Below the pieces are notes generated by a model. That model did not search any database, was not told the origin of the DNA, and was given only the letters and a program-made list of their open reading frames with translations. This document shows, piece by piece, positions 1-58,475 of a stretch of DNA of 64,000 bases (its first letter is position 1; the number at the start of each line of letters is the position of its first letter). This DNA comes from Crambe crambe. Its lineage: Eukaryota; Porifera; Demospongiae; Poecilosclerida; Crambeidae. The DNA lies in contig OZ004581.1 of assembly GCA_963924555.1 (NCBI GenBank), positions 3,844,001 to 3,908,000 on the forward strand, written 5' to 3'. The translations under genes were made by a program, and so were the position numbers.

Positions 1-340
1 GCAATCTTTGAAATCTTTCTTGGAAGATGTCCAGTAATGGTAACAGCAACAGTGTACCTATTGCTAGAGTTTTCAGGTTCTCTTCTGCAAGAAAACTGTT
101 TTCCGCATGCCATTATTTTGATACACATTTTAGCCTCTGATCCACCGCAGTACTTCCAAATCTTCCATAGTTGAACTGGCTAGCTAGCTAGCTAGCTATG
201 GCATGTTTATCATGTGCACATTATGTGCTATATTTTTTGCGTTTTGGTCAGAGTGTGTGTGTGAAATTATTTTTTCAATATGTGAATTATTACATACTGA
301 CCACACAAACATCATAAATTGCTATTTTCTATACTTTCAG

Positions 341-673
341 AGCCAAGCATTTCTGCCACTCTTAAGGATAGTGTGTGTCCGACATTGGGAGAGCAATACT
401 CACTGGAGTGCACAATATCTGCAACAGACTGTCTCATTGAGTATCATGATACGACTTGTGAAATAACATGGTACAAGAATGGAACAAGGTTACACACAGA
501 TTATCTTCAATTATCGAATGCTAAATCTGTTCAGTATGAATTGGGATCCCTCAAATACTCTCATAGGGGACGCTACACATGTGAAGTCACCATTACATGT
601 GGTCTAGTAAATGCACTCCCCAGAACTGCATCCCTCAAAGCCACAAGTAATCAAGTGGATGTTCAACTAAGTG
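341..673 (+). CDS. Ig-like domain exon 1 of receptor gene A
   Basis: This exon codes one immunoglobulin fold of about 110 residues. The pattern is clear: a first Cys in YSLECTIS, the core Trp in ITWYKNG, and the last strand GRYTCEVTI with the paired Cys. The acceptor is a pyrimidine-rich tract ending at 340 and the donor is gtatgt at 674. Both ends are phase 1, the usual phase for Ig exons, so the domain can be skipped or shuffled without changing frame. A reading frame open upstream of 341 is only intron read-through. The 5' part of the gene (start codon, signal peptide) lies left of the window. Homologous to the remnant at 52191. The Ig fold is a firm reading; membership in the same transcript as the NACHT exon is inferred from order, strand and phase. 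Confidence 0.8.
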
Positions 674-1133
674 GTATGTTAGTTTTATATGCATTTGTTG
701 CATATTTATGTCTATAATTGCCTAGTGCAATTACCTAACCAAATTGCACAAAAAAAAAGAGTAGATTACTTGTATCAGCCTGGGCAGCTGCATGTAGGAA
801 GCTGTTTATGTGAACCTGTAATACTTGCCACAAAACACTTACTTAAGCCTAGGGTGGCCTATATAGGCCAACAATCCACTTAGATAAGAATGCTGTAGAA
901 ATCAATCAAGCTTGCCTACCCAGTGGAGTAGGAACAGAAGAAATAACCACTAGCAGTGCACTGTAGTGTGAATTAACAACTTGTACAACAATGAATGTAC
1001 ACATTCCATGCATCTTGTGTCTTTTATTATATAACACTTCTATAATCATGCTGTAGTATTATTGCAGCTAGCGAGCTGACTCAGGTCATGACTCATTGAA
1101 ATTTTAAATAATCTAGGTCTACACTCCAAAATG

Positions 1134-1732
1134 CTAGTATTGCGGGCCCGACCCTTTACCAACCGCGAAGGAAGGAAAGAGTCTGGTCAAATCCAATACA
1201 TGATCTTGTTGTGCACAGTCAGCAATCTTCTGAAGGAAGGGCGCGGCTATGACGTTATTATACATCACGAATTTTAGGAAAAATCTGTGCTCCGGATTTC
1301 TTAGCGCCACATGGCTGAGCAGGAATATGATTACAGATTGGAGGCGGCTATCCAAGAGAGTGGGAGGAGGCTTGGAAACAGCTTTCTGGTCAGAAAGTGT
1401 CGGAATTTTTTTCAGTGCAACTCCTGCAAGTACCTGGAGCAGTTCTTTGGCTGATGCACACCCTGGACCATGCAGCCTTTTCTTTTTCCTATGATCACTA
1501 CCAATGAGATCTCTGCACAAGCAGCAGCTGGTTAACATGACTAAACTCATAGGACTACTCTAGCTCTGCAAGTGCACGCACGAAAAAAATCGTTCGAGAG
1601 CCGTGACGTATCGTGACGTTTTGCGCATGCCCGCCACCAAATCTTTGGCAAGTTGAAACAAGATCATGTATTGGATTTGACCAGACTCTTTCCTTCCCTC
1701 GCGGTTGGTAAAGGGTCGGGCCTGCGAGACTA
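1134..1732. mobile_element. hAT-type non-autonomous TIR element
   Basis: A 599-bp element in the intron between the two Ig exons. About 70 bp near the left end (1141-1209) returns as the reverse complement at 1654-1725. The element is flanked by a perfect 8-bp direct repeat CCAAAATG (1126-1133 and 1733-1740), the duplication length typical of hAT transposons. Its ends resemble those of the element at 61225. The minus-strand frame inside shows no transposase motif, so it is probably non-autonomous. Confidence 0.85.
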
Positions 1733-2246
1733 CCAAAATGCCCCAGGCATACATACATACATGTACATACGTGTCCCGAAATAGTAGCACTGTCCAGCAC
1801 TGTCCGTGTGCATAATGCGCATGTTCCAATTGTTTTCTACAGCCTTTTGTCATAGAGGTGCTAGCTTATTTAAGTGGATTGTAGGCACTTGTTATCCAAG
1901 TGCTTGTGGTAAATATTTACAGCTTTCTATATATGGAGCTTCCCAGTTGGAACCACAACTTACATGACTCTTGTCTCTGACAGCAATATGAAGCACTGGG
2001 GCCTATCAGCTGCTCACTTGCTCACTGTCAAATGCTGTACATTACTATAGTAATAGTTGTAGAGGCTCTAGCCTGGCTTATTTAAGTACTTTGTTACATA
2101 TAAACTCAACAGCAAATCTTCGAAAGAGTTGTAGCACTAACTTGCTCGCTCGCTCGCTGTCAAAATTAATGTTGCACATTGCCCGTTCCCAGGCCTTCCT
2201 CTCCACCTCATAAAAATAACGCCTGGGAATGAGGCTAGTATTATAA

Positions 2247-2528
2247 GGGAAAAAGCATTTCGTGAAATGAAAAAAGAAGTAGGGATGACCACTGCTCAAA
2301 AAAGTAAGGAAACAAGAAGGATGGAAATGGGATCAATCTTTGTTCTGTATATCCAGCTACAATCCCTACATATACGTCGGGTAGCTTCAGATTATAGTGC
2401 AGTAATAATGGATTGTTGGCTGGATATACAGAACAAAGATTGATCCCATTTCCATCCTTCTTGTTTCCTTACTTTTTTGAGCAGTGGTCATCCCTACATC
2501 TTTTTTCATTTCACGAAATGCTTTTTTC
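2247..2528. mobile_element. Foldback (palindromic) element, TAGGGATG family
   Basis: A near-perfect palindrome: the left arm (2247-2357) contains GTAGGGATGACCACTGCTC and the right arm (about 2418-2528) is its reverse complement, with a short spacer. It is one of about a dozen such elements in this window, most of them around 200-300 bp. If transcribed as intron RNA it would form a long hairpin. No ORF. Unlike ordinary MITEs the arms make up nearly the whole element. Confidence 0.85.
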
Positions 2529-2559
2529 CTTACTTGTTCCTGGTCTTTTTTCCTCTCTT

Positions 2560-2880
2560 TTATGGTTTTAGCTATGTATAGAGTTCATTCTTCTATGCAG
2601 GGACAGATGGAATAAGAATAGTTCTCCAATAGCATAGCAACGAGTCAAGGTGTTGTGTTATTGTTGAGCTATACTTAGAGGTCGAATATGCTAAAATAGA
2701 GTCTACTGGTAGCTGGATTGGTGAATCTAAAATCCCCAAATCGATAGTGTAGTCTATTATCTAGAGATAGCTGAGTAACATTATAATTTCGAATAATCAG
2801 ATATCAAATACATGCGCATGCGTATTATAGGCTTCCTAATTGAATTAGTCGAGTGCTGTGCTCCGTAGTGTCTCCTTTTT
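2560..2880. repeat. Dispersed repeat shared with 38560-38800
   Basis: The segment next to the foldback matches 38560-38800, including the stretch ATTAGTCGAGTACTGTGCTC (one mismatch here). Both copies lie directly right of a foldback element, so the pair may be one larger repeat unit. The stretch from here to 3650 holds no recognised gene; 3121-3175 is locally GC-rich (GGCGGCGCGCGCGG) with no ORF assigned. Confidence 0.6.
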
Positions 2881-3650
2881 TCATCGACTCTTTCGAGGAT
2901 CAACGAGTAGAGTGGTTCGAGAGATATGGTTGTCTAAGAAGAAGAATAATAATAGTAGAGAAGAAGAAGAATCTAGCGATTTACCTGCTTGCCGTATTTC
3001 AGAAACGGTAAGCTTCCTGGTCCTGAAACTTGGTCTGCACATTGTAGTAGGCTCTAGTAGGCTGGATAATCATTCACAGTAGCTTTTGTTAGGTCTAAGT
3101 GGGGGAACTAGAATTTCACTTTTGTATTAGTCTAAAGGCGGCGCGCGCGGCCGTCCGAGTCATCCCTACATAGTGCTACTGCACTCTCTAATATATGTTT
3201 GTGGCAGAAAATTTTAAAATATGCACTTATTTGACACTAGCTTATTTCATACTTGCAACATTTTCTTGAAGCCATAATGCTGATTTGAATTCTTGTTGGC
3301 TTCGCCTCCAAGGCTATCAGTTAAATCGATCATGCCTGGATATATAGATTGCATGTGAGTTTAAAATTAATGATCCATCGATTGATCCATCAATTGATCC
3401 ATTGATTGAACTCTGTGAGCTTTAGTGAATTTTTGAACACAAACATTGTTCCTTATAATTATAGGAGCAAATCTGAAATGGTTATAAGCAAAGAGAGTGC
3501 AAACAAAATCTTTTGGTGACTACACCCACTATGTGATCAACAGTTATACTATGGTAACATAGTACTTACCATCAATGATCATGTACCATGAGAGTATACT
3601 ATTTTACGGTCACGCTGTCACATTTTGCATTTTTTTTTTGATGTATTCAG

Positions 3651-3967
3651 AACCAAAACTCAAAGCTACTTTATCTCTTCATCCAAAAGATGGTAACCTA
3701 GTTCTGGGGAAAGAATATGAACTGCAATGCAAGCCTGAATTGAATATTCCAGGAATGGATATTGATTATTCCAGACTTGATTGTACCTACAAGTGGCACA
3801 AAAAAGGAGAAAAAGAACCCAGAGACATTACAAAAGGAATCCTTAGCTTGAAATCTTTTGAATTTTCTGATGCTGGATGCTATACTTGTACAGTTACTGT
3901 TAAAAAAATCATCTTCTTGATAGTGACCTCACGGTCACAGAAGAAAGAGATGTGGAAGCAGTACTAG
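3651..3967 (+). CDS. Ig-like domain exon 2 of gene A, frameshifted
   Basis: Second Ig fold of gene A. Visible landmarks are YELQCKPEL (first Cys), CTYKWHKKGE (Trp) and the last strand DAGCYTCTVTV. Acceptor ends at 3650 and donor gtaaga starts at 3968, both phase 1. After TVTV the frame used by the domain runs on into unlikely residues, while the -1 frame gives DLTVTEERDVEAVL, a natural G strand that joins the NACHT exon in phase. One base therefore seems missing near the run of seven A at 3902-3908. Either the allele is broken, the assembly has a homopolymer error, or the exon is skipped (allowed by 1-1 phase). Paralogue at 52418-52708 has damage at the same spot. Confidence 0.7.
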
Positions 3968-4182
3968 GTAAGACAAGATATGTTTTGTCTGTTCAAAGGA
4001 ATGCATTGTGTAAAGCAAGGATTTGTGCAATAGTATTATTATGAGGGATGGAGCCTGATGTTGGATAAATGGGGGGAAGGAGGGGGGTGGGGGCAGGAGA
4101 TCCCTCAGAGGATATTCCTAATCCCGAGTCTTGAGTGCTTTTATGCTCAGCACTTACCAACTCTATATTCCAATTATTGCAG

Positions 4183-5689
4183 CAGAAAAATGCCGGGAAG
4201 AAATGAAGGAGAAGTATAAAACGATGCAGTTTGACCCCATTGATAAAAATTGGACAATGAGGCATGTGATCAAACTCTCACTTGAGAATCATGGTAAGGG
4301 AAAACCTGGAGATGGAAATAAAGGGACTCTAGAAGTTTCAGAGATTTACAAATCCTCTAAGCATATCAGAGTAATTAAGGGAAAACCTGGAGCTGGAAAA
4401 ACTACACTTATGAGAACAATTAGTCGTGACTGGTCATTTGGAACAATCAAAGAGTTTTCAAAAAAGATACTCATTCTGGTTACAATCCGAAATCTTCAAG
4501 ATTACAGTGAAGAAAAAATCATAAAACAATCATGCTCATCGTTGGACAGCGAAAAGTGTAAATACCTTCTTCAATGCCTTGACTTTGGTAGAGGAAAGGG
4601 CTTTATTTTTTTATTGGATGGATTAGATGAATATAAAGACAAAGACACCAATGCACCATCATACATTGAAGATATTCTAAGTGAGATTACATTAAAGGAA
4701 GCCACAATTATTGCTACATCCAGATACTCTGCCTACTTACTCAACAAAATTACCAATGATAATACATGCTATTTTGAAATCAAAGGTTTTCTTAGAAATG
4801 AAGTATTTGGTTACTTTCAAGAACGTTTTTCAAGTGACAAATATAGAGAAGTGGAAAAATACTTAAAAGACAATCCAAACATGGTGAAGTTATGCTATAT
4901 ACCTTTACACTGTGCTATTATGGCAAATATATTATTATTTTTATCATTTAAAAAAAATGAAAAAGACTATCCTATGACAGAAACAAAGTTTTTCGAGATG
5001 CATACAAGATGTAGAATTATCCGATCAGTACGTAGACAGAGTGATAGTCATTTCAAACTACTAACACTTGATAAACTTGAGGGTAAAAACCGAAACCTAT
5101 TTAATGGTATTTGCGAGTTAGCATACCATGCAACAATGGAAAATACACAGAGTTTAGATGAAATGGAACTAGAGAAGCTCGAACTTAAGTGTGACAGTTT
5201 CCATTCACATCAGGGTAATATAAATGGAGGCCTAGGGTTACTTGTTATCACCCCCAGTATAACACAAGAAGGTTTACCTATCAACACATACAGTTTCACT
5301 CATCTTGCTGTTCAAGAATTCTGTGCGGCGTTCCACATTGCTAAACTGCCACAGCCACATATAACCAAGATCATCGAGGATGAGAAATGCCGTAATCACT
5401 TCAATTCGGCGTGGAAGTTTATTTGTGGACTACTAGACTTCACTAACAACCTTAATGGTGCATTGGAAGCATTTCATACTTTAATGAAAAAATATGATGA
5501 TAATGATTTGCTTTTCAAGATTCAGTGTGCTCATGAGACTCAGGAACAAGCGCCATGTATAGACCTTTATAAATCCATCAAAGAAATTAACATTATTCTC
5601 ATGACACCACCAGAACTTTCATTTTTCATGGGTACGATGGAAATATTAGGGCATGCAGACACCGAACTTCCAGATCTCAAAAGTATCAA
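4183..5689 (+). CDS. NACHT NTPase exon of receptor gene A
   Basis: One long exon of 1507 nt (about 502 residues) holds the whole nucleotide-binding module of an NLR-type receptor. Walker A is GKPGAGKTTLMR (near 4379-4414). Walker B is FLLDGLDEY (near 4606-4632), the NACHT form with extra acidic residues. A sensor-like IIATSR follows, and near 5297-5335 stands FTHLAVQEFCAAFH, the winged-helix motif found before LRRs in animal NLRs. The acceptor is ttattgcag at 4182 (phase 1, joining the Ig exon) and the donor is gtgagt at 5690 (phase 2, joining LRR1). An ATG at 4131 is in the intron and is not the likely start. No Death, CARD or PYD domain is seen; Ig exons take the N-terminal place. No stop or frameshift within. 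By family knowledge it should bind ATP/dATP and oligomerise on sensing a ligand. Confidence 0.9.
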
Positions 5690-6005
5690 GTGAGTGTCAT
5701 TGATATGGCTGGTATGTACAGCAAGCATAATCATATAGTACAATGCAGTTTTATTATGCTCTAGCCAAATCACAGCTGTAAAGTCATAGGGTAGTTGTAA
5801 ATAAATCTTGTAGTGAAATTTTTTCAGAAAGTGTAAATAGCAGTACATGCACAGAAGTACTTAATTGAACAACAATTCTTCCAGTGTTTACTAAATACAA
5901 TCCATTTGTATAGTGTACTAATTATATAATAATTATGTAAGCAAAATAGTATATCCTTTCAAGTTTGTAGTGAAGATGAGATTTACTCTCCATATCCCTA
6001 CACAG

Positions 6006-45269: not shown

Positions 45270-48200
45270 CTAGCCTCGTTCCCCGGCTCTAAAATTTTGC
45301 GGAGGTGGACAAAAGAGCCTGGTACCCACTGTTTGCACATGCGCCAATTCCCCCTAATTGGGGGAAATTGTAATCTCTCAGTAATCTTCTGTGACGCATG
45401 ACACAATACTGGTGAATCAGCACTGGAGCAGACTAGCTCTAGTTCACCAGTTCTTCTTTGCAGACGGAGTCAGTGTGTTTTGTTTCCACCTAGTACTGAA
45501 CAAGGAGCAGCAGCAAGCAATTCTCTCCGTTCGTTTGTTCGTTGGGGAATAGTGCAGAGCTGAGGCTGTGATCATCTCTGGATTTAAGGGAGAGCGGCTT
45601 TCTTGCCACCATGAATAGTTTTCAGTGCTAATTATAGCGGTCGGAAAACGGCCCTTTTCCTATCAAATGAGATCACATGCCGCTCAAACTCGATTTAGCC
45701 AGGCCAAAATGGCCGAACAAGCTAGGAAGCGTTTGTTTAGCAGTTCTTCTGTTAGCTCTAGTGAAGGAGAATCTTCTGCGGGAACAAAAAAGAAGCCTAA
45801 AAGGCAAGCTAAAGTGGCAACGTTCGAAAAGTGGAAGCGAGAATTCAATCCTAGGCACCGCTGCTTGGAGTGGCTCAGGTGTGATCGAGAAAAGTCTGAT
45901 AAAAATTCGGTTTCTACGTTATGGTGTGAAGTTTGTAGAAAATACAAGGACAAGATTCAAGGAATGAGAAACTACACTGGTGTTTGGGTTGTTGGCTCCA
46001 CCAACCACAAGACAAGTAACATCGTGGATCACACAACAAGTGATCAGCACATCACCTCGATGCAGCGCTTTGATTCTGATCGTGAAAAAGCTAGGGGGAG
46101 TCCTCTTGAAGATTACGCTCCTATCGTTCGGTCTCTGGTAGTGCTAGATGAAGGTGAGAAGGCTAAACTGAAGAGTAAGTTCGAAATTTGCTATGTACTA
46201 GCAAGGGAAAGCTTGGCCTTTGTCAAGTATCCAACTTTTCATGCCTTGTCAGAGCACCATGGAGTGCATCTAGGACACTCCTACAAGACAACTGATTCTG
46301 CCAAAGTGTTTACTCACTTCATTGCTGAGGCTCAAAGAAAGCTTTTCCTGCATGGTCTTGCCCGCGTCAAGTTTGTTAGCTTTCTCATGGATGGATCCAC
46401 TGATGCTGGCAACCTTGAACAGGAGGTAATTTTCGTAGTTTACTGTGAAAAAGATGAGGTTGCTCACCAAATTAGATCTGCTACACGCTATTTAGCAATT
46501 GTTAGTCCTCAGCATAGCACAGCTGAGGGTTTAGTAGATTGTTTGCAAGAAGCATTGAGCAGGCTTTGTATTGATATTCACCAAGATGAAGATAATGATG
46601 TGGATATTATCTTCAGTGATGGAAAACCAGTACTAGTAGGTGGGGGTACGGATGGGGCCTCTGTCAACATTGGTTGTCATAATGGTGTTAAAGAGAAATT
46701 ACAGTCTATGTTCCCTTGGCTCTTTTGGGCTTGGTGTTTCTCGCACAGACTTGAGTTAGCATGCAAAGATTCTTTTACCAGTCCTCTTTTCAATGAAGTC
46801 ACTATTTGTACAAGAAATCCCCAAAAAAGTCACGTGAGCTTGAATCTATTGCTGAAGATTTAAGGGAGTTTTTTGATATCCCTAAAGGAGGTAACTTGCC
46901 CATTAAATGCCAAGGAACACGATGGATAAATTATAAAAGAAGAGCTCTTCAGCGGGTTATTGATCGATATGGAGCATATATAACTCACCTTACCACTTTA
47001 GCAGAAGATAGTACTCTAAAATCAGCTGACAGAGCACAACTTAAAGGATACCTGAAGAAGTGGTCTTGTGGAAAGTTCATTATTGCTTGTGCTTTGTATG
47101 TTGATGCTCTTAAGCCACCTTCCCTTCTGAGCTTGGTTCTCCAAGATGACAAAAGAGTTGATATAGTACAAGGAATTAAAAGCATCCTTAAGTCTGTGAG
47201 TACCCCTTCAGGCTATGGTCCAGCAAGACCCTCTTCAGTGGCCAACGGTGAAACTTGTTTTATCCAGGATTTCGACCGACGGTAGTGGTGGAAAGCTTTA
47301 TCAAGGTAGTGTTCTTGCCCAATATACAGATAGCATGCTCACTAGATGCATTTCTGTGGCTGTATCTGACCTGAAGAAACTTGATTGTAAGATTAGGGAC
47401 AGGTTAGCTTGGTCTGATGCTGAGTTGTTGAGGTCTATTTTGGCTTTCCTAGACACTCGGAGTTGGGCTGCACCAGCAAAGGTATCTATGGTTGTGGAAG
47501 GATGTGATAGTTCTGATACCGAAAAAGTTCAGGAGGAAGCTGATGATAAAGCTGAAATTAGGGCAGCTATGCACTACATAACTTCTGTTTTTCGAAAGCC
47601 ACTGGAACTGAAAGGAACAAGCTTGTTTTTATGTGATGATGAGTTGGATGACATGATCGACTATTGCAGAAACTATCTTGATTGTAAGCTAGAAGACTAC
47701 AGAAGGATCTGGTATACCTTGCACACCACTCAAGATGCAGTGAGATGGCCAAATCTTCTTATTGTAAGTGAGCTTCTTTTTAGCTTACCTTTTACCAATA
47801 GCAAGGTAAAGAAGTCTTTTTCACATCTGAAGGTTATTAAGTCTGAACATCGTACCAGTCTCCATACTAGTACACTGGATGATTTGCTTGAGATTAATAT
47901 TGAAGGACCCCCATTTGAATCTTTTTCTGCTGGCTCTGCAGTGGACCTATGGTGGGCACAAACAGTTCGCAGGCCTAACCAGAAGTCAAGGAAAGACTAT
48001 AGACCCAGAGAAGGAAGCAGTAGCAGCACTGACGATGATTCTCAGTTTTATAAACCCACTGATGAGTATTCACTTGATGATTGGGACCAGTGGTTCAATA
48101 ATAACTCAGAATGAAATGAACATTTTCTTTCATATGAACTTTTTCAGATATTTTCAGACACATTTTCATGCAATAATTTTGATTGAGTGTATGTATGTCA

Positions 48201-53206: not shown

Positions 53207-53237
<31 letters not shown>

Positions 53238-53246
53238 GGGGGGGGG
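53203..53246. repeat. (GT)n followed by 26 G
   Basis: A GT dinucleotide tract runs into a 26-base G homopolymer just upstream of the NACHT exon acceptor. The length is unreliable in most sequencing. Confidence 0.95.
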
Positions 53247-53333
53247 CAGGAGATCCCTCAGAAGATATTCGTGATCCTGAGTCTTGTGCTTCTATGCTCA
53301 GCAATTACCAAATCTATATTCCAATTATTGCAG

Positions 53334-54646
53334 CAAAAACATGCTGGAAAGAAATGAAGGAGAAGTATAAAATTATGCAGACATTGGATGTGATCAAACT
53401 TTCACTTGAGAATCGGGATGGTAAGGGAAAACCTGGAGATGGACATAAAGAGACTCTAGAAGTTTCAGAGATTTACAAATCCTCTAAGCACATCAGAGTA
53501 ATTATGGGAAAACCTGGAGCTGGAAAAACTACACTTATGAGAACAATTGGTCATAAGTGGTCATCTGGAGAGATCAAAGAGTTTAAAAAAAAGATACTCA
53601 TTCTTGTTACAATCAGAGATCTTCATCAAAACTACAATGTAGAAAACATCATATATCAATCATGCCCATATTTGAGCGAAGAAGAGCGTGAATACCTTCT
53701 TCAATGCCTTGACAGTGGTAGAGGAGAGGGCTTTGTGTTTTTATTGGATGGATTAGATGAATATCAAGATCAAAAAGACACAGATGCAACATACATTGAA
53801 AATATTCTAAGTGAGAATAAGTTGAAGAAAGCCATAATTATTGCTACATCCAGAGACTCTGCCTACTTACTCAACAAAATTACCAATGATAATAATACAT
53901 GCTATTTTGAAATCAAAGGTTTTCAGGAAGATGAAGTATTTGATTACTTTGAAAAACGTTTTCCAGGGGACAAAAAAGTGAAAGATTATTTAACAAGCAA
54001 TCCAAACATAATGAAGTTATGCTATGTACCCTTACACTGTGATATTATGGCAAATATATTATTTAAAGAATTTGAAGATCCACCTCCTGAGACGGAAACT
54101 GAGATTTTCAAGATGTATACGAGACATAGAATTGTCCGATCTGTACATAGACAGGGTAATATTTTTCAACCACTAATGTTTGATGAACTTAAGAGTAAAG
54201 ACAGAGAACTATTTGATGATATTTGCGAGTTAGCATACCATGCAACAATGAAAAATACACAAAGTTTAGATGAGAAGGATCTAAAGGGGCTCAAACTTAA
54301 GCGTGACAATTTCCGTTCACATCAGGCTAATATAAATAAAGGCCAAGACATGCTAGGGTTACTTGTTATCACCCACGTTGAAACACGGGAAGATTTACTT
54401 AACAAATACAGTTTTACTCATCTCACCGTTCAAGAATTCTGTGCAGCGTTTCACATTGCTAAACTGCCACAGCAAAGTATAACTGAGATCATCGAGGATG
54501 AGGAACGCCGTAATCGCCTCAATTCTGTGTGGAAGTTTATTTGTGGACTACTAGACTTCACTACAACAACACAACAATATGAAAAATCATGTGATTCCAT
54601 GCATCATCCATTGTGTATGCACGTGACTATGACCTATGATGACTAA
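53334..54646 (+). CDS. NACHT exon of receptor gene B, truncated
   Basis: Paralogue of the gene A NACHT exon, with acceptor ccaattattgcag and phase 1. Walker A GKPGAGKTTLMR (near 53509), Walker B FLLDGLDEY (near 53735), IIATSRDSAY, and FTHLTVQEFCAAFH (near 54415) are intact. Identity to gene A holds to WKFICGLLDFT (about 54560). After that it switches to unrelated sequence and stops at TGA... in fact at the stop codon ending 54646, about 90 codons before gene A's exon end. No donor matching gene A and no LRR exon follow to the window end. It may be a truncated pseudogene or an LRR-less NACHT protein. The ATP-binding core itself has no lesions. Confidence 0.85.
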
Positions 54647-54679: not shown

Positions 54680-55350
54680 GAACTGAGCTGTACACGTGCA
54701 TGGGTGCTAACAAGTTGTGTTGGTGGCGTATCTCCAACAGGTGGTTGAATTAATATATCAAAAGAAAAGAGGAGGGGGTTGTCACAACCAACAGTGATAT
54801 ATAAATCTGACGTCACAATAAATCAGTAATAAAGCAAGTGCATTAGGTATGAGCTAGCTTGCTATCTATGGCTGGGAGTATTTTCTGCTTGGGCTGCAGG
54901 ATTGACTTAGCCTCTTTAGTTAAGAATCTTGGCTCCAAAGGATGTCCTGAGCCTAGGGAACGTGTTGTAATGGTGAGGTTTTAGGAAAACAAAGGTTGGG
55001 GTCTTCCAGGATCCAAGAAATTGTGTAGGAAAAATGCTTTTGCAACTTTTGACAAGTTTTATAACTATACAATCAACTATGAATTGGCAGGAATGATGTA
55101 TTACATAGTGCCATTGATTAGTTAATGAACCATGGTATGCATAACTGCTGTTGCACATTGATGCATGCGTGAGGAGAAAGAGTACCTTTAAATCAAGAGT
55201 TCCCTAGTGTAATCAATACAGTCATTTAGCTATTGGTCGCATTCAATGTATATACCAAAGGTCAACTCGGCTGTATACCTATCTAACAAAAATTTCCCAA
55301 TTTACGGTAGATAACTTATTTATTGAATAGAAACATGTGGAACATCATAT
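54680..55350. repeat. Repeats between gene B and the transposon
   Basis: 54680-54985 matches 39230-39520. 55130-55350 matches 31990-32340 and is the left flank of the transposon insertion. No gene. Confidence 0.6.
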
Positions 55351-57872
55351 GGGGCATGGAAAATAGAAAGGGTCCTTAGGGTTATTCTGGTGGACAATGA
55401 GATAAACACCAAAATGTATTTTTAAGTGGTTCTAAAGCTTGAAAATGGCCATTTTCCTCTGGGCTATCAGATATAAAGTGGAATTTTACTACCTTTTTAA
55501 TAATGAAGTGGAAAAGTGGTGTTTTGAGAAAAAAACATTTAAAGATAGAAAATGAAGTTTGTGTATAAAAGTTTGGAAAAGTGACTTCAAAAAAATTTAT
55601 GGTTCTGGACAGGTTATATCTTGATATTCCTCATTAACAAACCGGCGAATTTGCTCATACAAATATTTTTTTCGTTCTGGTGTTAGTCCGGCAGGAGGTA
55701 ATATAGAGGGAATACGAGCACGTTTGACATTTGTTAACCTTACTCCCTGTTTTAGGATATCAACCTTTGTTTCACTGGAGTTCCAGGATTTACGAACATA
55801 TACAATACCTGGTTCAGCATTATGCATCCGAAAATGTTGATATTTGGTAATGCCTGGGATCTTCTTGAAATATTTTAAGAAGAAAACATCCCATTCTCGC
55901 CATCGCCAATCATATAATTGAGGAATATTATTAGCACTGGACCTTCTAACAACTTGAGCCATTTGATCCAATGTATCAGTCTCCGACTGACGATAAATCT
56001 TTTTGATTAAACCAAAGTGACCATCCACTAAACATCTAGTATGCCCAACACGCATGAAAGAGAGAGTAATTTTTTTGTGTTTCCCTTTTATTATACGCCA
56101 TGCCAAATAGCCGATAACATAGTTATTTTTGTTCTGGCCTACACAGTTATCACAATGTAAGTGACATTCTTCCTCTATCAGAGAATGTTTAGTAAAGTAA
56201 TGGTCAAGCATTGATATGACAGAATTTGGCCCATGGGTAGTACTACCATTAAATCCAATGCTGTTGTCCTCATCAATGAGATAATTGATTTGCTTTCTGT
56301 TGCTATCACAACAAATACCAAATAATTGAATTTTTCGGCATACCTTGAAGTAAATTGGCCCAACTTGACGTGAATGATGAGGAATATGAACCTGCTCAGC
56401 AAAATCAAAAGTATAGTGAGCATATTTTGGTTTCGATTGAGTGCCCGAGACCTTGGCTAACTCTGCTTCTGATTTCTTCATTGAATCAAGGTAATAATCC
56501 CGCTCCTGTTGTGCCATTGTAATATGCAGGCTAAAGTCTGTGGTATATTTTATTTTTTCTTCTTCATTTATAGCATTTCTCAGTTTATAGCGAAAGTTTT
56601 CACAGGTAGCACACACATCTGACCGGGGAGTCATAAAAACAATATCTGGTAAACATTTCTTCCACATTTGAGTAAATGACTTATACTTCAAAAAACGTGC
56701 ATGTGGATCCTTAGCTTGACATGCTTCCACATATTTGGAGTGAACAATCATATAGTTTTGTGATGCAGGGAGGTAAATTGGAGGGTTTTTTGCTCGTCCA
56801 GACCTTGCTGCTGGCTGAGGAATTCCATAAACTTCAGCATAATTACGAATAAAGCGAGCCCCTTCGCTGACAATACTATAGGGGTATGTGGTAGCAGGCA
56901 TACGACCAATTAAACCATGCTCTCGAGCAATAGGGCCATTATTTCGAAGATGCTTTTGTAAATTTTTCAATTGTTTAGTACCAATGTCATGCAATAAAAT
57001 AAAAGCATCCTTACACACACTACGATAGTCAAAGTGATAATCACATGTAACTCGTTTACGTTTTCCAGGGTGTACTCGATTAGCATGATGCACTGAGCTC
57101 TCATTACGAGAGAGAACATGAAGTTTCCCCAAAATTAACATGTCCTTTTCAGTTTTAGTCATTTCACGCAGTGACAGAATAAAGGAGTATACTTCAGCAA
57201 CAGTAAACTGTGACAGGCAATTACTTGAACAGGAACAAGTTGAATCAATTTTGCTGGTTAGTTTAGCATGGAGTGGGTCACTATCTGGAGTGATCAGGCT
57301 AGAGTTTAAACCCTCCCCAGGAGTATCACCCTCTTCATCAGATCCTGAATCACTCTCTAGCTGTTCAGAAGCTCTTAGTATTCTAGTCTCTAACTCAATA
57401 TCATCAATAATACCTTGTTCTTCAACTTCCTCCTGGTCACTTTCATACTCACTGCCTTGATTCTCTTCTGATTCACAATGCTCACCAAAGAATTCTTCAT
57501 CTTCACTCTCTAAGTGAGTTTGTTCTTCCGGAGTGAGCCCATACACAGCTTCACTGCTAGCTACACTCATACTTGTAACCTTCAGCTACATGCTTTGTGG
57601 TTAGTGGCTGGCCATGTGCTTTAGCTTGCGGTTCATGGTCATGTGCTTATGTAAACGGAGCCAAACCATATCCTAGAGATTACTACACTAGCGCGAGTGA
57701 GTAAAATTAAACTTCTAGCGCATAAATAGAGCAATTCTGCAATCTAAGGTAACCAAAGAATAAATTTCTGAAGAAAAACAATTTTTCAAAAAAATGACCT
57801 TTTGCACTATATTTGGGCATACTTTTAAACAACCTTTTTAACCCTAAGGACCCTTTCTATTTTCCATGCCCC
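55351..57872 (-). mobile_element. Intact 2.5-kb DNA transposon with DUF7869-type ORF
   Basis: 2522 bp with perfect 34-bp terminal inverted repeats (starting GGGGCATGGAAAATAGAAAG at each end, read inward) and ATAT on both sides (55347-55350, 57873-57876). One uninterrupted minus-strand ORF of 657 codons fills most of it. The paralogous locus at 32318-32341 lacks the element. Perfect ends, a short direct repeat, an empty site and an open ORF all point to a recent insertion. The superfamily is not one I can name from TIR and duplication length. Confidence 0.9.
55597..57570 (-). CDS. DUF7869-type protein, putative transposase (657 aa)
   Basis: ATG at 57570 and TAA at 55597, no introns. Residues 1-100 are acidic (Glu/Ser/Asp-rich). 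A Cys cluster CSCSSNC lies near 112-118. Residues 175-225 (RVTCDYHF...CKDAFILLHDIG...LQKHLRNNG...HGLIGRMP) resemble a helix-turn-helix DNA-binding region of this family. CATCE near 320-324 could bind zinc. Residues 381-530 carry YTFDFAEQVHIP (Asp389), HCDNCVGQNKNNYVIGYLAW (Asp474) and LVDGHFGLIKKIYR (Asp516), the most conserved motifs of DUF7869 proteins. Their spacing is compatible with an RNase H-like DDE/DDD core, but that is an inference. Given the inverted ends it is probably the transposase. Many annotated 'uncharacterized' invertebrate proteins share this domain. Confidence 0.8.
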   Translation of the reverse strand: MSVASSEAVYGLTPEEQTHLESEDEEFFGEHCESEENQGSEYESDQEEVEEQGIIDDIELETRILRASEQLESDSGSDEEGDTPGEGLNSSLITPDSDPLHAKLTSKIDSTCSCSSNCLSQFTVAEVYSFILSLREMTKTEKDMLILGKLHVLSRNESSVHHANRVHPGKRKRVTCDYHFDYRSVCKDAFILLHDIGTKQLKNLQKHLRNNGPIAREHGLIGRMPATTYPYSIVSEGARFIRNYAEVYGIPQPAARSGRAKNPPIYLPASQNYMIVHSKYVEACQAKDPHARFLKYKSFTQMWKKCLPDIVFMTPRSDVCATCENFRYKLRNAINEEEKIKYTTDFSLHITMAQQERDYYLDSMKKSEAELAKVSGTQSKPKYAHYTFDFAEQVHIPHHSRQVGPIYFKVCRKIQLFGICCDSNRKQINYLIDEDNSIGFNGSTTHGPNSVISMLDHYFTKHSLIEEECHLHCDNCVGQNKNNYVIGYLAWRIIKGKHKKITLSFMRVGHTRCLVDGHFGLIKKIYRQSETDTLDQMAQVVRRSSANNIPQLYDWRWREWDVFFLKYFKKIPGITKYQHFRMHNAEPGIVYVRKSWNSSETKVDILKQGVRLTNVKRARIPSILPPAGLTPERKKYLYEQIRRFVNEEYQDITCPEP

Positions 57873-57926
57873 ATATGTAGGCTAGCTACTATAGCAATGG
57901 AAAAGTCTACTAACCATCTATAAAAA

Positions 57927-58475
57927 GCAAAGGAAAAAATATTTATCCTAAATGAAAAAGAAATGGCTGTGTGCAGTTCAAAAAAGTTCAGCAACAAGAG
58001 AGTCAAGTAACCCCTTAGCTACCCATCACCAATATTACCAAACTACGAGTTACTTCACTCCCATGACAGGCCAAGATGAGATATAGCTCGTAGTTTGGTG
58101 ATGGGTAGAGTTCACTCTCTTGTTGCTGAACTTTTTTTGAACTGCACACAGCCATCCCTACTTTTCTTTTTTATTTGTGAATAAATATTTTTTCTTGATG
58201 TAGCTAATGGTCTATCATTTTATTATAGGAAACTGGATGATGTAATCCTGCTATCCAAGTTAAAGTTCACATATCATAGCTATGTAGCTAGCTAGTTCAT
58301 TGGAGGTCTCATAATATTGCATGAGCCGAAATGAATATCTGGAAGGACTAATGCTGATGAAGCTGGTATCTATACAGTCTAATAATTTTTAAGGCCTTTA
58401 CTGATTAATGTTGCATCAAGGGCTTGATTCATAACCAGACTAGTGCCTAGGGTTTATGCTCTGAGCATCAAGAGG
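57927..58475. mobile_element. Foldback element with flanking repeat (inverted copy of 11090-11700)
   Basis: Palindrome 57927-58195 (GGCTGTGTGCAGTTCAAAAA and its complement). 58200-58475 is the inverted counterpart of 11090-11390 (GGCTTGATTCATAACCAGAC). 58475-59330 shows no gene; frames are short. Confidence 0.75.

Follow-up and report, generated by a model that had tools for sequence, protein, structure and literature searches.

The transposable element described here, located in a window of 64,000 nucleotides of the Crambe crambe genome (contig OZ004581.1, positions 3,844,001 to 3,908,000), is a DDD-type DNA transposon. The assignment follows from its inverted ends, from 4-bp duplications of the form AWWT, and from three recurring Asp residues that are found also in a relative from a Nitrospirales bin. 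We file the element as most probably a Sola2-type DNA transposon whose DUF7869 open reading frame (ORF) encodes the DDD transposase, at a probability of about 0.83. It shows each Sola or Sola2 trait examined, and it is placed by published descriptions rather than by protein sequence. DUF7869, by the same token, is likely the transposase domain of a Sola2-like group.

Structure, copies and empty sites of the window element

The features of the element are collected in Table 1. The two inverted ends are complementary at 34 of 34 bp, and the inverted match as a whole extends to 39 bp, the flanking CATAT and ATATG being complementary to each other. The longest open frame extends over 662 codons, whereas 300 mononucleotide shuffles gave no frame longer than 170, and the remaining ORFs inside the element reach at most 106 amino acids. 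Pfam model PF25273 (DUF7869), labeled as a domain with function unassigned, matches residues 444-597 of the protein with an E-value of 5.1e-21; the score of 75.6 bits exceeds the curated cut-off of 26. An earlier, sequence-only reading had proposed inverted ends of 34 bp without mismatch, flanks of ATAT, and a single 657-codon ORF, and all three were recovered at the positions listed.

Table 1. Coordinates (window numbering) of the transposon and its parts.
Feature	Position	Strand	Basis or remark
Whole transposon	55351..57872	-	2,522 bp; one long gene, minus strand
Left 4-bp target-site duplication, ATAT	55347..55350	.	ATAT occurs once in empty paralogues
Left terminal inverted repeat, 34 bp, GGGGCATGG...	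55351..55384	+	perfect match to right repeat
Right terminal inverted repeat, 34 bp	57839..57872	-	pairs with left repeat
Right 4-bp target-site duplication, ATAT	57873..57876	.	flank reading
Transposase ORF (putative), 657 aa, DUF7869; D389, D474, D516	55597..57570	-	ORF list, Pfam, alignment

The same 34-bp ends recur elsewhere in the host genome, which was searched over 143 Mb in 119 contigs. A second full copy of this family, designated family A, lies at C5:9091871-9094395 and is 99% identical to the window element, with its ORF split into three frames. The third copy, on contig C3, is degraded and retains one end. Among the three family-A copies found, therefore, only the one in the window looks intact. 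We infer that this copy may be active at the present day.

The left flank of the element has paralogues on the same contig, C1. At one of these (L038, C1:3774294 onwards) the joined flanks align without gaps, identical at 296 of 300 positions, and ATAT occurs once. Two more paralogues, L041 (176/197) and L042 (175/197), also carry a single ATAT. These loci bear out the suggestion, made from the sequence by itself, of an empty site at a paralogous locus; all three lie on the same contig outside the window, and a search within the window gave no match that reaches the insertion junction. The window contains NACHT-domain ORFs at 4131-5693 and 53207-54646, and the duplicated flank on C1 is therefore probably part of an NLR-type gene cluster.

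Two other features of the window may be recorded. An ORF at 45625-46863 has a C17orf113-type zinc finger (E-value 4e-7), and a hAT dimerisation region is found slightly below cut-off (E-value 2e-4) at 47215-48114; these neighboring ORFs probably represent a hAT-derived element. To the right of the transposon, at 57930-58196, lies a palindromic repeat with arms (57963-57985 and 58133-58155) that are 100% complementary. Similar DNA is present elsewhere in the window, and the repeat appears to be short DNA of the foldback or MITE kind.

Target sites and relatives in the host genome and in bacteria

PF25273 matches at least 47 stretches of the host genome, at least 46 of them over the cut-off, where the count is of stretches and not of genes. 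About 10 kb was examined around each of 20 DUF7869 loci, together with three additional regions (L002, L015, and L016). Paired inverted ends surround the gene at 12 of the 20 loci. No inverted-end pair was found at the other eight (L017, L018, L020, L026, L027, L028, L033, and L036), among which L033 has inner remnants of a family-D end. Both ends are present at L002 and one at L015, and inverted ends were not found in the region inspected at L016.

Copies with paired ends number 14, counting the window copy, and 13 of them have an exact 4-bp AWWT duplication. The duplication is ATAT in eight (window, L002, L021, L023, L025, L032, L034, and L035), its exact length being ambiguous at L021 and L034 because of a surrounding AT repeat; ATTT in two (L019 and L024); AATT in two (L029 and L030); and AAAT in one (L022). 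In the fourteenth copy, L031, the left end is eroded and a duplication is absent. Two 4-mers drawn at random from the window would be identical with a probability of 0.005. ATTT and AAAT are not palindromic, and the 4 bp must therefore be viewed as target DNA rather than as an extension of the inverted ends. The target length, a point raised by the sequence-only reading, is accordingly 4 bp.

We placed the element borders at the first G of each end, L034 included. Termini beside AWWT duplications begin with G, with the left terminus of L029 mutated to A. Copies measure 2.4-4.7 kb, nested DNA included, and have ends of about 30-40 bp, some of them imperfect. The initial G and an inner AAAAGGG-like box are common to the ends of families A, B, C, and D and of L023 and L034; the box is slightly divergent in family A, and the ends of L030 and L035 differ more. 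Substitution counts between copies are given no weight: dN 0.06 and dS 1.14 for the old pair L032/L033, which suggests constraint, and dN 0.010 and dS 0.014 for L024/L025, near neutrality.

Among the five closest proteins, an N-terminal CxC-x3-C stretch and a P-x2-D-x-C-x2-C stretch are invariant, as are three further motifs, FD-x-A, DNC-x-GQNKN, and GHT-x4-D-x2-FG. A literature search that combined GQNKN with "transpos" found nothing. In an alignment of eight members (A1), all matched by PF25273, D474 and D516 are invariant in every row. Designating D389, D474, and D516 as D1, D2, and D3, all 11 aligned sequences have a spacing of 42 residues between D2 and D3, and nine of them have 79 or 85 between D1 and D2; the exceptions are L026, which is without the first part, and L020, with a spacing of 80 and D1 one residue off. 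The three Asp residues stand at the positions first proposed and recur across relatives, the Nitrospirales protein included. Judged from this conservation, D389, D474, and D516 are a putative DDD site of a transposase. Three of the eight rows of A1 also have a C-terminal C-x2-C-x4-H stretch, and L030 has a PHD finger slightly below cut-off (E-value 1e-4, 22.7 bits versus 24).

A collection of bacterial and archaeal genomes was scanned with two motif patterns, which found 33 matching stretches, two of them relatives. One, L048, comes from a sponge-derived Cycloclasticus bin; it has 64% identity with family D across 156 residues and probably represents contamination from the host. The other, L047, on contig JAHRAK010000131.1 of a Nitrospirales bin, encodes a near full-length relative with 33% identity over 575 residues, for which a profile comparison by hhalign gives a probability of 100 and an E-value of 1.4e-92 over 521 columns. 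Inverted ends of about 30 bp enclose its gene in an element at 201-3739, and the 4-mers that flank them differ, ATAT and AAAT. The tie of DUF7869 to a defined DNA element, noticed at the single locus, is repeated in several families of the host genome and in a bacterial contig.

Across the end of the DUF7869 gene of L047, at 2281-3621, lies an insertion with 12-bp inverted ends and an 8-bp duplication, CCCCATGT, which we take from its ends and protein to be of the ISL3 family. The nesting of an ISL3-type element there, with its own duplication, is evidence that this DNA resided in a bacterium. The ISL3 transposase of the contig gave no match to A1. Relatives of the L047 type are rare: one was found in 395 genomes drawn from its phylum, and it is the source genome itself. 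Plasmids and phages gave no match to the L047 protein, homology scans and a pattern scan of viral contigs found no DUF7869 relative, and a tree of 14 rows does not fix the position of the bacterial protein.

Comparison with Sola2 and other superfamilies

Sola2 transposons are included in Repbase, reportedly from work by Bao et al. in 2009. Bao and Jurka (2013; PMC3627910), in a paper on Fanzor proteins, ascribe to Sola2 4-bp AT-rich AWWT duplications, with ATAT, AAAT, and ATTT named, and describe an amoebozoan Sola2 transposase of 888 amino acids with terminal inverted repeats (TIRs) of 12-13 or 21 bp. For Sola in general, PMC10741241 reports a DDD transposase, a 4-bp duplication, sizes of mostly 2-9 kb, TIRs of 11-1124 bp, and occurrence in bacteria and metazoans. 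According to PMC4455052, Repbase unites Sola1, Sola2, and Sola3 as groups within a single superfamily.

Compared by these descriptions, the DUF7869 elements resemble Sola2 in their AWWT 4-bp duplications, their inverted ends, and a host range that includes bacteria. Their three conserved Asp residues correspond to the DDD transposase reported for Sola in general, and their sizes and ends fit the ranges given for Sola. Sola1 and Sola3, as Sola members, share the 4-bp duplications and the DDD transposase, and by sequence either may still apply. Differences are seen in the amoebozoan examples, whose protein is longer and whose TIRs are shorter than the 657 residues and 34 bp here. The window element has no second long ORF. 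Further points against the Sola2 reading are the transposase models that give no significant match, the DUF7869 loci without a TIR pair, the family C/L023 ends away from listed DUF7869 matches, the paired copy L031 with no duplication, the unequal flanks of the bacterial copy, and the low confidence of the AlphaFold models. Membership of Sola2, beyond likeness to it, is what we infer from this comparison. The sequence-only reading is supported as to the transposon, its tie to DUF7869, and the three-Asp motif. Its suggestion of a poorly described transposase family is probably wrong, since by these descriptions the Repbase superfamily Sola2 most likely fits, through the AWWT duplications and the DDD of Sola. 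Kolobok (PMC9587614) and piggyBac resemble the present elements in having 4-bp duplications, but both duplicate TTAA only, a sequence that accounts for none of the 13 duplications found here.

It is unlikely that the DUF7869 elements form a separate, unnamed DDD superfamily that shares the AWWT target and the 4-bp duplication with Sola2 by chance. In favor of such a superfamily, none of the transposase models of Pfam and NCBIfam and none of the PHROGs matches DUF7869 members significantly, Pfam assigns no function to the domain, and a literature search on the word DUF7869 found nothing. However, Pfam may merely be without a Sola model, and the target rule, duplication length, size, three Asp residues, and bacterial range all fit the published Sola and Sola2 descriptions. 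We also find it quite doubtful that DUF7869 defines a transposase superfamily distinct from Sola2, occurring in a bacterium and the host genome with a fixed AWWT rule, and perhaps a distant DDD cousin of PF07592. Were that the case, the intron-bearing clade without ends described below would consist of captured host genes or of elements that move otherwise.

For a Sola2-type element, the DUF7869 transposase would be expected to bind the inverted ends through its N-terminal part. The three Asp residues would form a metal-binding DDD site at which hydrolysis cuts the element out, strand transfer would join it to a target staggered by 4 bp at AWWT, and gap repair would then produce the 4-bp target-site duplication. 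Movement would be by cut-and-paste rather than by copying. The likely identity of DUF7869 as a Sola2-like transposase, with relatives in the host genome and in a bacterial bin, gives working meaning to an unannotated Pfam domain; a protein that carries it is to be regarded as a suspected DDD transposase or a derivative of one. Gene sets that list such proteins as host genes may therefore contain transposons. Since the element is compact, with an intact ORF and defined ends, and has a bacterial relative, this transposase group could be tested in vitro.

Association of gene and ends, and the predicted fold

Alternatively, the DUF7869 protein could be a passenger or host gene lying between ends moved by another transposase. 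Ends of family A (up to three mismatches to the first 25 bases) number five, all at DUF7869 copies, and the nine ends of family B all lie at DUF7869 DNA: four copies account for eight of them, and the ninth is 345 bases away from a DUF7869 stretch. Of ten ends of the family C/L023 type, six lie at three DUF7869 copies. The other four, all on contig C3, comprise a pair separated by 3.5 kb and two isolated ends, and lie away from any listed DUF7869 match. These four, and a clade of intron-bearing genes (L017, L018, L027, and L028) without detectable inverted ends, favor a passenger. Against it, the DUF7869 ORF is by far the longest in the window element, DUF7869 is carried by several families with different ends, and the bacterial contig repeats the gene between inverted ends, the adjoining ISL3-type element being a nested insertion with a duplication of its own. 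A passenger role is therefore very improbable.

The pair of family C/L023-type ends at C3:2212284-2215803, with no DUF7869 match listed between them, is possibly a non-autonomous or decayed element. Contig C3 holds 18 of the 47 DUF7869 stretches and makes up 6.8% of the genome (binomial 6e-10, for stretches that are not independent), and may be a contig where old transposons accumulate. In the intron-bearing clade, the match to a gene is divided among several exon-like pieces. The two highest PF25273 profile scores are those of L017 and L018; L027 and L028 are 99.8% identical over 5.2 kb, and some genes of this clade are multicopy.

RNase H-fold (DDE/D) transposases bring three acidic residues together through their fold. 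Searches of the PDB by sequence gave no match at an E-value of 1 for the window protein, and the best E-value against an eight-row profile was 1.8. NCBIfam model ISNCY_2 touched three of eight members (best E-value 0.013) and was rejected; in L023 the match (E-value 0.028) covers residues 181-231, outside the catalytic part and far below cut-off.

Pfam model PF07592, a bacterial DDE transposase, found one member of the eight, L023, with an E-value of 0.053 over residues 431-526, which hold D2 and D3. Aligned by hhalign with six PF07592 proteins, the ADN of D2 pairs with ADG, GHT-x4-D pairs with GTSKWNKIEH, and, with the register unchanged, D3 comes to lie a single residue away from the E of NKIEHR. 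The hhalign probability is 0.2-0.4%, the score is reached by two of 40 column shuffles, and HMMER scores in both directions lie within shuffled and reversed controls. This register has low probability and is not above controls, and the RNase H fold of the DUF7869 protein still rests on analogy. In the window, the PF07592-like stretch corresponds to 55951-56172 (protein residues 467-540), sub-threshold and in register, at a level not above controls. Zator duplicates 3 bp, in contrast to 4 bp here, and in spite of the sub-threshold resemblance around the second and third acidic residues it is scarcely credible that the element belongs to the PF07592 (TP36/Zator-type) transposases or to some distant branch of that group.

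Two AlphaFold models, built with three-row alignments, have mean pLDDT values of 43.5 and 40.2. For the second, Foldseek gave no match at an E-value of 0.001; at 10 it gave 343 matches, the best 50 of which include a retroviral integrase (rank 27, E-value 1.3, TM-score 0.16) to which we give no weight. D1 lies in or at the end of a predicted strand in both models, D2 follows a strand in the second only, and D3 begins a helix in the first only. At this low confidence, the most that can be said of the predicted structures is that they are compatible with an RNase H core.
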